Positions 1,355-30,222 of a stretch of 33,791 nucleotides of DNA are shown here, in pieces. A program made the translations under genes and the position numbers. The notes under the pieces were generated by a model. That model was not told where the DNA came from and searched no databases. It was given only the letters and a program-made list of their open reading frames with translations. Numbering within the stretch: position 1 is the first letter of the stretch; each line of letters begins with the position of its first letter. The DNA comes from Deltaproteobacteria bacterium (GTDB lineage Bacteria; Desulfobacterota; Desulfobacteria; Desulfobacterales; UBA11574), in the NCBI GenBank assembly GCA_019310125.1, contig JAFDEW010000002.1, positions 1 to 33,791 on the forward strand. Reading direction: 5' to 3'.

Positions 1355-1370
1355 TGGCACAAAGGTTGCT
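1355..1370 (+). promoter_or_regulatory. Sigma54 (RpoN) promoter upstream of motA
   Basis: TGGCACAAAGGTTGCT: consensus TGGCAC-N5-TTGC with GG-N10-GC spacing, 68 bp upstream of the motA ATG. Confidence 0.8.
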
Positions 1371-1437: not shown

Positions 1438-2193
1438 ATGGATATTGCAACTGTATTGGGTATTCTCTCTGCAACCGGCCTTGTGCTTGGCGCCATTTTT
1501 ATGGGCTCGGGGCTGAATGTATTTATAAACATACCTTCTTTGTGTATTGTTGTGGGCGGCACCATAGGCGTAACATTGGTTGCTTATCCCTTAAAAGATT
1601 TTCTCAGTGTTATCAAAGTGGTGCAAAAAGCAATTTTTACTAAAAATATATCCGCTAAAGAACTTATATCCAAGTTTACGGATTTTGCCAAAATAACTCG
1701 CAAAGAAGGGATTCTGGCTTTAGAAAGCGAAATAAAGGAAGTTACGGACGAATTTTTTAAAAAAGGGGTCCAGCTTTCTATCGATGGATTGGAGCCCCAA
1801 CAGATCCAGAACATTCTGGATACGGAAATCGATTTTGTGAGAGACAGACACAAGCTTGGTGCTGATCTTTTTACCTCCATGGGGACGTTTGCTCCTGCCA
1901 TGGGTATGATCGGAACGCTTATAGGATTGGTGCAGATGCTGCAGAGCATGGACGACCCGAGTACGATCGGGCCGGCCATGGCGGTGGCATTGCTCACAAC
2001 CTTCTATGGTTCGCTTATGGCCAATATTTGTTGTATGCCCATCGCAGGAAAGCTTAAAACTCGCAGCAAAGAAGAGATGTTGACCAAAGAGATGACGATT
2101 CAGGGAATATTATCCCTTTCCAATGGCGACAATCCAAGGATTCTTGAACAGAAACTCCTGGCATTTCTACCGCCTGTCAAGGAGAAGGATTGA
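1438..2193 (+). CDS. motA: Flagellar motor stator protein MotA
   Basis: MotA/TolQ/ExbB features: 'MGTFAPAMGMIGTLIGLVQML', 'AVALLTTFYGSLMANICCMPIAGKL'. Confidence 0.95.
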   Translation: MDIATVLGILSATGLVLGAIFMGSGLNVFINIPSLCIVVGGTIGVTLVAYPLKDFLSVIKVVQKAIFTKNISAKELISKFTDFAKITRKEGILALESEIKEVTDEFFKKGVQLSIDGLEPQQIQNILDTEIDFVRDRHKLGADLFTSMGTFAPAMGMIGTLIGLVQMLQSMDDPSTIGPAMAVALLTTFYGSLMANICCMPIAGKLKTRSKEEMLTKEMTIQGILSLSNGDNPRILEQKLLAFLPPVKEKD

Positions 2194-2199
2194 TAAGGC

Positions 2200-2976
2200 A
2201 TGGATAAAAATAAAAAGAAAAAAATTGATGATGACGGGGCGGATATTGGAATGGTGATGACCGTTTCTCTTTTTCTCATACTTTTAACTTTTTTTATTTT
2301 GCTCAATTCTATCGCGGTAATAGATGAACACCGGTCACGCATGGCTATAGGATCGTTGATCGGTGCATTTGGCGGATTGCCCGGGGGATTGTCACCCTTA
2401 GAGACGGGAAAATCGATTATGCCCCCTTCGGCGCCCATGGTTAAAGACGAGTTAAGCCTTGAAAGACTTTTGTCCTACATGAATAAAGAGACGACAACCT
2501 GGCCGAGTGACATCAGAGTAGAAAAAGTGGGGGACAAGCTCATGATTACCATAAATGAAAAGGTTCTCTTTAGCGAAGACCGATCTGAATTCAAACCCTC
2601 TATATTACCGGTTTTAGATAAATTATGCGGTATTATAAACAAGGAGAATTATCCGGTAGAAATAGTCGGGCACACGGACGATATACAGGCCGGGGGTAAA
2701 GGATTTAAGTCTAACTGGGAACTTTCGGCACTCATGGCGATTCAATTAGTGAAATATTTCGTATCAAAAGGTTCGGTTTCGCCAAAAAGGCTGAATCCAT
2801 ATGGATGTGGGGAGTTCAGGCCGACTTCACCCAATAACACCCGGCAATCGAGGTTCCAAAACAGAAGAGTGGAAATTATTTTGAATTATAAAGCGCCGAA
2901 TTACATTAAAAGGATTTTTAGAAAAAAACCATCCGGTTTCTTCACCTACAAGAAGTTTGACTTTAAAATATTTTAA
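2200..2976 (+). CDS. MotB-like protein 1, OmpA-type peptidoglycan-binding domain; lacks the canonical TM aspartate
   Basis: TM segment 'GMVMTVSLFLILLTFFILL' plus OmpA motif 'VEIVGHTDD...NWELSALMAIQLVKYF...RFQNRRVEIIL'; immediately after motA. Confidence 0.88.
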   Translation: MDKNKKKKIDDDGADIGMVMTVSLFLILLTFFILLNSIAVIDEHRSRMAIGSLIGAFGGLPGGLSPLETGKSIMPPSAPMVKDELSLERLLSYMNKETTTWPSDIRVEKVGDKLMITINEKVLFSEDRSEFKPSILPVLDKLCGIINKENYPVEIVGHTDDIQAGGKGFKSNWELSALMAIQLVKYFVSKGSVSPKRLNPYGCGEFRPTSPNNTRQSRFQNRRVEIILNYKAPNYIKRIFRKKPSGFFTYKKFDFKIF

Positions 2977-3000
2977 ATAGCCGCAAAAAAGGAAAAAGAT

Positions 3001-3711
3001 GTGAGCAAAGATGATATTGATCCCAATGCCTGGATGGTGACATTTGCGGACCTGGTTATGCTTCTTCTCACTTTTTTTGTATTGTTGCTCACCATGTCTT
3101 CAATGGATACAAAGAAGCTGAAAAAACTTATGACTCACTTCAACGAATCAACCGGAGTACTTGAGTTCGCAGGATCCGGGAAGGTTTCCGACTTCTCATC
3201 TTTTATATCGAAATATAATGATAGCGACAGCATGTTGGTCGTTGATCAGAAAAAATTCTTTACTGAAATAAAAATATCTCCGGCAATTAAGAATATGTTA
3301 AAAAATATTAATGGGAAAATAGATCTTTCAGATGATGAGAGGGGGGTTGTGCTTGCATTTAATGAAAACATCCTTTTTGAAGCCGGAAAAGCTTCATTAA
3401 AAAAGGAAATATCTCTCGTTCTCGATGAAATTGCCGATGCGATATATGAATGCCCTAATGATATTCTGATTATGGGGCATACAGATAATATTCCGATTAA
3501 AAGTAAGTTATATAAAACAAATTGGGAACTATCAGCATACAGGGGGCTTTCGGTTCTATACTATTTTTTGAAGGAAAAAGGGCTGTCACCGTCACGTTTT
3601 TATGTCGGGGGCTACGGTTCTTTCCGACCAGTATATCCAAACGACACTGCGAAGAGCCGATCGATGAACAGGAGAGTAGAGATAATATTTAAGCATGTGA
3701 AGGAGGGATAA
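3001..3711 (+). CDS. motB: MotB-like protein 2 (canonical TM Asp), GTG start
   Basis: 'NAWMVTFADLVMLLLTFFVLL' and 'ILIMGHTDN...TNWELSAYRGLSVLYYF...MNRRVEIIF'. Confidence 0.92.
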   Translation: MSKDDIDPNAWMVTFADLVMLLLTFFVLLLTMSSMDTKKLKKLMTHFNESTGVLEFAGSGKVSDFSSFISKYNDSDSMLVVDQKKFFTEIKISPAIKNMLKNINGKIDLSDDERGVVLAFNENILFEAGKASLKKEISLVLDEIADAIYECPNDILIMGHTDNIPIKSKLYKTNWELSAYRGLSVLYYFLKEKGLSPSRFYVGGYGSFRPVYPNDTAKSRSMNRRVEIIFKHVKEG

Positions 3712-4191
3712 ATGGCAGAGGAGAAAGAAGAAGTCAAAGAAAACGAAGAAGAAAAGCCAAAGAAATCAAAACTAAAGCTGATAATTATAGGGGTTTTAGT
3801 ACTACTCCTGGGCGTTGGTGGATTTATTGGATATAGCAAATATAAAAAATCAAATGCAAACAAAGCTGAAAAAGAGGAACAGATGAGTATCATCATTCCT
3901 TTAAAGTCATTCGTTGTTAACTTGTTTGATAAGAGAGACATGGGTAAAAGATACTTGAAAATTAGCATGGAGCTTGAGGTCGGCAAAGAAGAAGATCGGG
4001 TGAAGGTTGAAAATAATATACCCCAACTCAGAGATACCGTACTTATTCTTCTTTCGAGTCAGACATTGAAAGAGGTTAATACAATGGAAGGGAAGCTTGA
4101 ATTAAAAAAGGCAATTATATTGAGGATGAATCAGATACTTGGAAATAAAACAGCTCGAAGGATATATTTTACAGAATTTGTGGTGCAATAA
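3712..4191 (+). CDS. fliL: Flagellar basal body-associated protein FliL
   Basis: N-terminal TM then 'IIPLKSFVVNLFDKRDMGKRYLKISMELEV...RDTVLILLSSQT'; overlaps fliM. Confidence 0.92.
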   Translation: MAEEKEEVKENEEEKPKKSKLKLIIIGVLVLLLGVGGFIGYSKYKKSNANKAEKEEQMSIIIPLKSFVVNLFDKRDMGKRYLKISMELEVGKEEDRVKVENNIPQLRDTVLILLSSQTLKEVNTMEGKLELKKAIILRMNQILGNKTARRIYFTEFVVQ

Positions 4192-14057: not shown

Positions 14058-14855
14058 ATGACTTCTTTAAAGCGGGAAGATAATACAGAAGCGATTGTCG
14101 AACACGATCCGGACGATCCGGGGAATGAAGAGATCTCAGAGACCATCGGACACGAGTTGGATGATCCGGAGAATGAAGAGATCTCAGAGACCATCGGACA
14201 CGAGTTGGATGATCCGGAGAATGAAGAGATCGCAGAGATTACCGGACACGAACTGGATGAATCGGGAGATGAAGAAAACGCAGAAGTTACCGGAGACGAT
14301 CTGAATGGACCGGGAGTCCCGGAGGACGAATCATTTGTCGGTAGTGATTTGAACGAATCCAAAGATAAACGGAGTAGAACATATACAGAAAAGAAAATTA
14401 AATTTAAAGGCATTATAAAAAAGTTCAGAGTCAAAAAAACGTTGTTCTTGTTTCTTGTGGCAGGTGTATGCGTTTTGGCCGGGGGGAGTTATTATTCTTT
14501 TCAACATAAGAATGGGAAAGAAATCAATTCCCGAAGCAACATCTTTCCCATTCCCCATGATAAATCAATCATATTTGAATCGTTTATTCTACCGATTCAA
14601 AACAAGCAGGGATATACCTATATTTCTTTAAACCTTTTACTTGAATTGTCAAATATAAAATTAAAGGGAGAAATAATAGAGAAAAAAGATCAACTCAGGG
14701 GAATTATTTACGATATACTGGAACAAGAGATACACAGGGTGGAAGATGCCGACGCATTGGATAAACTAAAGACGTTAATTATAAAAAGAACTAACACAGT
14801 ATTAACTTCCGGAGAAGTTCGTGAGGCATTTATAACCAATTTTTTGCTGGTTTAA
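14058..14855 (+). CDS. Second FliL-like protein with N-terminal acidic tandem repeats
   Basis: TM 'KKTLFLFLVAGVCVLAGGSYYSF' then FliL-like 'IIFESFILPIQNKQGYTYISLNLLLELSN...LRGIIYDILEQE...EVREAFITNFLLV'. Confidence 0.7.
   Translation: MTSLKREDNTEAIVEHDPDDPGNEEISETIGHELDDPENEEISETIGHELDDPENEEIAEITGHELDESGDEENAEVTGDDLNGPGVPEDESFVGSDLNESKDKRSRTYTEKKIKFKGIIKKFRVKKTLFLFLVAGVCVLAGGSYYSFQHKNGKEINSRSNIFPIPHDKSIIFESFILPIQNKQGYTYISLNLLLELSNIKLKGEIIEKKDQLRGIIYDILEQEIHRVEDADALDKLKTLIIKRTNTVLTSGEVREAFITNFLLV
14123..14314 (+). repeat. 48-bp (16-aa) tandem repeat, about 4 copies, within the second fliL-like gene
   Basis: Copies start at 14123, 14171, 14219, 14267 (GAATGAAGAGATCTCAGAGACCATCGGACACGAGTTGGATGATCCG); first two identical over most of the unit, later ones diverged. 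Confidence 0.92.
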
Positions 14856-25951: not shown

Positions 25952-25968
25952 TTGGCACGAAGTTTGAA
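25952..25968 (+). promoter_or_regulatory. Probable sigma54 promoter upstream of the lytic transglycosylase
   Basis: TTGGCACGAAGTTTGAA: good -24 half, -12 is GA rather than GC. Confidence 0.5.
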
Positions 25969-28734: not shown

Positions 28735-30222
28735 CTATTTTTTTCTGCGAACAACTCTTCTCTTTTTAACCCTTTTGCGGGGTTTTCTTGAAACAGGAGT
28801 TACGGTATTAGACTCTTGAAATACCGAGTGGATCATTTCTTTATTATTTTCTGATGCTTCCCAAGGAAGATTCTGCCGGTATCTGCAGGTTGACCTGGGG
28901 CATTTTAAAATAGTTTTTCCTGCTTTATCGGAAGTTTCAACTAAGAATGGATTGTTACATTGTAAACAGAGAATATGATATGGTTTGCCCCAGCTAATAA
29001 AATTGCAGTTTTTGGCTAAACATCTATAAAAAGTTTTTCCCATTGCAGTCTCTTCGGCCTGGATTTTTGACTGTTTACATATGGGGCATTCAAGTGCCAG
29101 ATCTTCTTCAAAAGCTGTGATACGTTTTTCTATATCATCATCGATTCTGATTAAATCCTCTTTTTCAGAACTTTTGTCCGGTTTATCACCAATTGCTTCT
29201 TTTACTTCTGTAACTTTATTAACGGTTGAGTCGATTTCTGATTCCTCATCCTTATTTTTTACAAGCGTATCTTTATCTTGCTCTGCGGGTTCCATGTCTT
29301 GTAACGGTGTTTCGATGGGAGAAGTGGAATCATCTACGGCTATGTTTTTAGCAGCTACTTCCTCAACCGGATCTTGCATATCGCTTTGTTTCTCAACATC
29401 ATCGTATGATTTGGTTGTACCGCCTTTTACTCGCTCTTTCGGTCTCTCAGATTCACTTTGTTCACCTATATCCGAAATATTATTTGTTTTATTTTCATCT
29501 GAAGAAGGCTTACCAAAAGCTAGCTTCTTCAGTTTCCCTTTATAGGCAGCTGAAGATAAGACTTTAGGGTCGGACAGGGAAATCTTGGAGGCCTTATGCC
29601 AGCTGTCAATTTTTTGACGACCCAGAATGCCTGACTTTTTTATTCGAGGTTTTTGCTCTTCCGATTGTTCCGGACCCTTTGTTGGTGATGGATCGGGTTG
29701 CTCTTTATCCAAAAGAACGCCCTGCATGGTTAATACTTGATCAAATTGATTTTTGGCGGTATCCAGGTCTTTTCGTTCCGATGTTACCTCATCCACGGTC
29801 TGAATGAAGTAGGCGATGAGATTCATTCCAGGCATACCCGGGAAGGCCTGATCGAGAAGTTCAACCAAGATTGCGGACGGCTTTCCAGGAATAAACCTTT
29901 TATCATCATCAACATTAATATAGCCGTTCTCGATCATATCCCGGACAACACTATTCATATCCTCACGGTCCGGTCCAAAGTCCATTTCTTCCAATTCACT
30001 CATTAATGTTTCAGAAGTATAACGAACAGATGCGCCGGAAGGAATACTTTTTATCTCGTTTTCACGTTCCATTAGCAGAATAAGACATGATATGATGAAA
30101 GAATTCAAGGACAGCTTGTTCGTCAGATAGTTGCTGCCGATCAAACGTTCTAAATGCTTAATAAGAACTTTATCAAATATATCGAGAACGTTAGTTTTGA
30201 CGTTATCGGTATCCCGCATCAT
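28735..30222 (-). CDS. Hypothetical protein: alpha-helical N-terminus, acidic disordered linker, two topoisomerase-type zinc ribbons, basic tail
   Basis: 'CPICKQSKIQAEETAMGKTFYRCLAKNCNFISWGKPYHILCLQCNNPFLVETSDKAGKTILKCPRSTCRYRQNLPWE' and 'SRKPRKRVKKRRVVRRKK'. Confidence 0.8.
   Translation of the reverse strand: MMRDTDNVKTNVLDIFDKVLIKHLERLIGSNYLTNKLSLNSFIISCLILLMERENEIKSIPSGASVRYTSETLMSELEEMDFGPDREDMNSVVRDMIENGYINVDDDKRFIPGKPSAILVELLDQAFPGMPGMNLIAYFIQTVDEVTSERKDLDTAKNQFDQVLTMQGVLLDKEQPDPSPTKGPEQSEEQKPRIKKSGILGRQKIDSWHKASKISLSDPKVLSSAAYKGKLKKLAFGKPSSDENKTNNISDIGEQSESERPKERVKGGTTKSYDDVEKQSDMQDPVEEVAAKNIAVDDSTSPIETPLQDMEPAEQDKDTLVKNKDEESEIDSTVNKVTEVKEAIGDKPDKSSEKEDLIRIDDDIEKRITAFEEDLALECPICKQSKIQAEETAMGKTFYRCLAKNCNFISWGKPYHILCLQCNNPFLVETSDKAGKTILKCPRSTCRYRQNLPWEASENNKEMIHSVFQESNTVTPVSRKPRKRVKKRRVVRRKK

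Follow-up and report, generated by a model that had tools for sequence, protein, structure and literature searches.

A tandem motB pair in Desulfobacterota, one member without the ion-binding aspartate, suggests a flagellar motor unit of two unequal halves

In current models of ion-driven motors with five A and two B subunits (5:2), the two B subunits are taken to be identical and to pass ions on in alternation. In the turnstile model, the two identical sites alternate in 36-degree steps, and 10 ions pass per turn (PMC9389320). In Aquifex aeolicus, an operon of motA, motB1, and motB2 encodes two MotBs whose transmembrane (TM) segments are 97% identical and whose periplasmic parts are 23% identical (Takekawa et al. 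2015, PMC4525482). In the AglR-AglQ-AglS gliding motor of Myxococcus, AglQ and AglS may heterodimerise (PMC9389320). Here, we analyzed a stretch of 33,791 nucleotides (the window) from a Deltaproteobacteria bacterium of the Desulfobacterota (Desulfobacterales, UBA11574; assembly GCA_019310125.1, contig JAFDEW010000002.1, positions 1 to 33,791), in which motA is followed by two motB genes and the product of the first, MotB1, lacks the ion-binding Asp. The window is one contig of a 3.79 Mb genome that is 93% complete. The genes motA, motB1, motB2, and fliL lie head to tail at 1438-4191, with intergenic gaps of 6, 24, and 0 nucleotides:

1438..2193, + strand: motA, PomA-like stator A subunit of 251 amino acids (Pfam MotA_ExbB, 8.2e-33)
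2200..2976, + strand: motB1, Asp-less MotB paralogue of 258 amino acids (Pfam OmpA, AlphaFold2 model, Foldseek)
2266..2268, + strand: TCT codon of MotB1 Ser23, at the position of the ion-binding Asp (alignment and codon check)
3001..3711, + strand: motB2, canonical MotB of 236 amino acids with a GTG start (MotB_plug and OmpA)
3049..3051, + strand: GAC codon of MotB2 Asp17, the ion-binding residue
3712..4191, + strand: fliL (Pfam FliL, 6e-24; synteny)

The pair had been proposed from the letters of the window alone. The coordinates and codons which that original prediction gave for Ser23 and Asp17 were exact, and the OmpA-type domain that it assigned to both proteins was recovered by Pfam. Each of the two residues stands exactly nine positions ahead of the last phenylalanine of a common FF. 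Moreover, profiles of both MotBs aligned without gaps across the TM to solved MotB chains (6ysf and 8ucs), and the Asp of these chains fell in the Ser column of MotB1. Another TM alignment placing Asp or Glu at the ion site, which had been named in advance as a reason to abandon the Asp-less reading, was excluded by this gap-free alignment. The acidic residues near the MotB1 TM are confined to its cytoplasmic or periplasmic flanks, and MotB2 has flank acids too. Thus, MotB1 has the N-terminal TM of a MotB with the ion-binding Asp replaced, and MotB2 has the TM Asp, the plug, and the OmpA domain of a canonical one. The whole W-x-x-T-F-x-D motif in the cytoplasmic half of the TM (W-6, T-3, F-2, and D0 in MotB2) is lost from MotB1. 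The outer half (I/L-L-L-T/A-F-F-I) is retained among its orthologues: FF in 112 of 112, I+4 in 106 of 112, and L+6 in 108 of 112, with L+5 and I+10 likewise over 90% conserved. The loss in MotB1 is specific to the ion-site motif, whereas the packing half of the TM, with its FF, is invariant.

Tandem loci were collected by searches in relatives, in the class, and in the phylum, together with one scan of named genomes, whose contigs were the sample for prevalence outside the home phylum. We found 136 tandem loci, 113 of which were distinct. MotB2 carries the Asp in all 113. The ion-site residue of MotB1 is Ser in 80, Gly in 14, Ala in 13, Asn, Cys, and Thr in one each, and Asp in two, with one sequence truncated; the site is therefore nonacidic in 110 of 112 scorable loci. 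These counts carry a search bias, since the queries were MotB1s and mostly Asp-less, but the Asp column lay outside the scan pattern and Asp-bearing members still turned up. The pair is immediately preceded by motA in 109 of the 113 loci and immediately followed by fliL in 108, the exceptions being contig ends or incomplete calls. Wherever the contig covers the neighbors, motB1 lies between motA and motB2-fliL. The linkage of motB1 to motB2, which the original prediction had proposed to check among orthologues together with the nonacidic site, is thus conserved. The two motB genes are at most 15 nucleotides apart in 93 of 113 pairs, 53 of which overlap, and this tight spacing is consistent with translational coupling. 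They are in the same frame at 22 loci, as they are in the window across the 24-nucleotide spacer. In a phylum sample of 395 genomes, 245 had a MotB_plug protein and 68, by our own count, had a match to the N-terminal MotB1 profile at E <= 1e-16; the best 30 of these profile matches all lay in the order motA-motB1-motB2. Among the named carriers are Desulfotignum (L175, L177), Desulfosudis (L172), Syntrophaceae (L103, L108), and, as an isolate, Desulfatibacillum alkenivorans DSM 16219 (locus L123). The arrangement also occurs in metagenome-assembled genomes labelled Myxococcota/Polyangiaceae (L135, L136, L171), Nitrospirae (L133, L142), and Sumerlaeota (L134, L152), although such labels can be wrong.

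In a tree of 88 proteins, the MotB1s formed one side of a branch with support 97/94. The periplasmic domain alone did not separate MotB1 from MotB2 (11 changes), so the evidence for the MotB1 clade comes chiefly from the TM and plug region; a single MotB1 clade was not rejected by a test on the periplasmic part (p-AU, approximately unbiased test, 0.465). The two Asp-bearing MotB1s have different settings. In a quick tree, for which no root was inferred, that of L084 paired with the Asn-bearing MotB1 of L081 among the branches nearest to MotB2 and single MotBs, a placement consistent with an ancestral Asp that was lost early. The MotB1 of L094 (1489-2226, - strand) shares 79% TM identity with its own MotB2 and 34% in the periplasmic part, while the median TM identity between MotB1 and its own MotB2 is 29%; the TM of L094 was likely copied from the adjacent motB2 by gene conversion. 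In close pairs of MotB1s, most ratios of nonsynonymous to synonymous substitutions (dN/dS) fell at 0.05-0.4, and MotB2 gave similar ratios; higher, unreliable values came from a few pairs whose dS was very low. These ratios indicate that MotB1 is under purifying selection and is not decaying, as had been supposed from its appearance. Lineage-specific degeneration, the other outcome named beforehand as fatal to the proposal, was excluded by the conserved tandem loci, the dN/dS values, and the single clade. On this comparative evidence, the Asp-less MotB1 is real and ancient, and no local oddity; it occurs in many sulfate reducers and their relatives.

AlphaFold2 modeling on 83 MotB1s (mean predicted local distance difference test score 78) gave a confident TM helix at residues 16-40, a plug-like helix of low confidence at 43-57, and a confident OmpA fold at 105-229, for which Pfam gave 1.6e-11. 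Foldseek matched MotB1 to the periplasmic domains of MotB, PomB, and MotS, and also to YfiB-type domains; top matches include 3khn, 3wpw, and 3s0h. The MotB1 of the window is below the MotB_plug threshold, but 71 of 83 orthologues match that family, and MotB1 is therefore a true relative of MotB. Its TM is the best-conserved part, with a pairwise identity within MotB1 of 0.55 versus 0.35 for the OmpA domain. The model also has a C-terminal beta hairpin (residues 246-257; 2935-2973, + strand; FFTYKKFDFKIF), which is conserved in 38 of 113 MotB1s and occurs in no MotB2. Peptidoglycan contact in OmpA-like domains is made by an Asp and by the Arg of LSxxR, the established ligand residues of such domains, as in OmpA of A. 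baumannii (entries 3td3-3td5). The original prediction had MotB1 keeping this motif; the Asp of GHTD is indeed present in the window, but the Arg is replaced by Met. Both residues occur in 68 of 113 MotB1s versus 96 of 113 MotB2s; another residue stands in place of the Arg in 36 of 112 MotB1s but in only 1 of 112 MotB2s. Anchoring thus seems to rest more on MotB2 than on MotB1.

The constant pairing of an Asp-less with a normal MotB suggests a motor unit of two unequal halves. We consider it somewhat probable that MotB1 and MotB2 form a heterodimer within the MotA pentamer, a MotA5:MotB1:MotB2 stator with a single ion site. In such a unit, the heterodimer would take the place of the central B-subunit dimer. 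MotB2 would give the single ion-binding Asp and the full set of peptidoglycan-binding residues, and MotB1 the second TM helix and a plug, with Ser, Gly, or Ala at the ion site. A small neutral residue there would hold the MotB1 half permanently in the "neutral" state. A turnstile with one site would then pass one ion per 72-degree step, or about 5 ions per turn of the ring instead of about 10, and its ion cost and torque ceiling per turn would both be halved. The fuller picture, an asymmetric 5:1:1 rotary motor with an obligate MotB1:MotB2 axle, one ion site, and half the ions per turn, derived from one ancient duplication and now present in several phyla, is put forward more tentatively, as a possibility a little short of even.

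A position of MotB1 alongside MotB2 within the MotA ring is favored by the conserved TM of MotB1, its place between motA and motB2, the tight gene spacing, and its correlation with MotA. The genome of the window has MotB2 as its sole MotB_plug match and sole Asp-bearing MotB, and the window motA encodes the sole MotA (two further MotA_ExbB matches on other contigs were taken as ExbB/TolQ-like), so ion flow in this motor must pass via MotB2. The mixed dimer, one of three roles originally offered for MotB1, is the one that the sequences favor, its composition being inferred. A purely peptidoglycan-anchoring role is weakened because 36 of 112 MotB1s have lost the diaminopimelate-contacting Arg, although conservation of the TM persists. 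However, several points weigh against a heterodimer in the ring. The partial distance correlation given MotB2 and FliL was highest of all pairs for MotA-MotB1 (0.445), with MotA-MotB2 at 0.291 and MotA-FliL at 0.077, but such correlations are weak evidence. MotB2 could pair with itself, as the B subunits of normal stators do, and the Asp is still present in two MotB1s. Published mutants of E. coli MotB at D32 are nonfunctional, so function with one site must have needed adaptation. Moreover, chimeras of Aquifex show that either tandem MotB TM functions alone with MotA (PMC4525482), so that two motB genes in tandem need not mean a heterodimer.

Among the other explanations, the one that survives best, although we regard it as unlikely, is that MotB1 forms nonconducting MotA5:MotB1_2 complexes of its own or mixes in at a low ratio, as a negative or tuning subunit that would reduce output, restrict leak, or compete for sites at the motor. 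In E. coli, MotB mutants at D32 are known to be dominant-negative, and MotB1 retains, besides the plug-like helix, the half of the MotB TM that contains FF. A tuning subunit would nevertheless be expected to shift position or vanish in some lineages, and about 110 loci all have the adjacent, tightly coupled genes in the same order. Next comes a MotB1 outside the MotA pore, anchored by its TM and serving the stator from the periplasm as a surrounding scaffold or recruiter like MotY, MotK/MotE, or FlgX, which we likewise doubt. Its confident OmpA fold, matching domains of the MotB, PomB, and YfiB type, and the extra C-terminal hairpin of some MotB1s would suit this role, but a simple anchor has no need of an invariant FF in a TM that is conserved above the rest of the protein, and a third of MotB1s are without the peptidoglycan-contacting Arg. 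A reading of MotB1 as a duplicate that is dispensable or decaying is very improbable and strongly disfavored, for although the window protein escapes MotB_plug detection and some lineages have lost ligand-binding residues, one ancient clade, intact frames, MotB2-like dN/dS, and synteny fixed across phyla all speak against it.

The pair lies in a flagellar cluster that runs through a flgE fragment, motA, motB1, motB2, fliL, fliM, fliN, fliO, fliP, fliQ, and fliR, and continues with flhB, flhA, flhF, a MinD/FlhG-like gene, fliA, and more rod, ring, and hook genes. The top-scoring NCBIfam model for motA was PomA, under the cut-off of that model. About 68 bp upstream of motA, we found a candidate promoter by consensus match only:

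1355..1370, + strand: sigma-54-like promoter, TGGCAC-AAAGG-TTGCT

The site has no mismatch to TGGCACN5TTGCW and one to the query pattern. A second sigma-54-like -24/-12 site lies at 25953-25968 (+ strand), upstream of a transglycosylase gene, and a loose sigma-54 pattern gave 49 matches in the window versus a shuffle mean of 33, above all 100 shuffles. At 14058-14855 (+ strand), there is a second FliL-like protein with one TM, whose C-terminal part matches FliL weakly, narrowly missing the cut-off (E 2.2e-4), and whose acidic N-terminal stretch holds about three repeats of HELDDPENEEISETIG. MotB and FliL both appear doubled within this cluster. The gene at 28735-30222 (- strand) encodes a protein of 495 amino acids with no Pfam match, C-terminal cysteine clusters resembling zinc ribbons, and a very basic tail.

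A literature search for Asp-less or paired MotBs returned only Aquifex and AglQ/AglS, and a 2025 survey of MotAB evolution contained no match to "aspart" or "tandem." No earlier description of an Asp-less MotB retained next to a normal MotB came to light, although many journals lay outside the search and an earlier report is possible. The tandem motB operon itself is already known from Aquifex; its Asp-less member is apparently new within the literature searched. A natural B subunit without the Asp, long kept beside a normal one, offers a direct test of whether one site suffices. The pair also lets the role of the second chain, and the evolutionary gearing of ion cost and torque per turn, be tested. 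In these genomes, a gene next to motB that is annotated as "OmpA family" or "MotB" probably encodes a core part of the stator.

Compared with the described systems, the locus is closest in layout to that of Aquifex aeolicus: a single motA is followed directly by two tandem motB genes, and the periplasmic parts are strongly diverged. The TMs are near-identical there, whereas here they share little identity and MotB1 is Asp-less. Only L094 resembles the Aquifex type (TM identity 0.79), and by analogy the Aquifex pair may also be a product of gene conversion. The AglR-AglQ-AglS motor likewise has one A subunit and two unlike B subunits (PMC9389320), but AglQ and AglS are both described with the TM Asp and are TolR-like, not OmpA-type. 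With canonical MotA5MotB2 and PomA5PomB2 stators, the locus shares a MotA partner and a MotB2 with plug, Asp, and OmpA domain, and MotB1 has their TM packing residues and OmpA fold. The difference lies in the B dimer, which in those stators consists of two identical chains with two ion sites.
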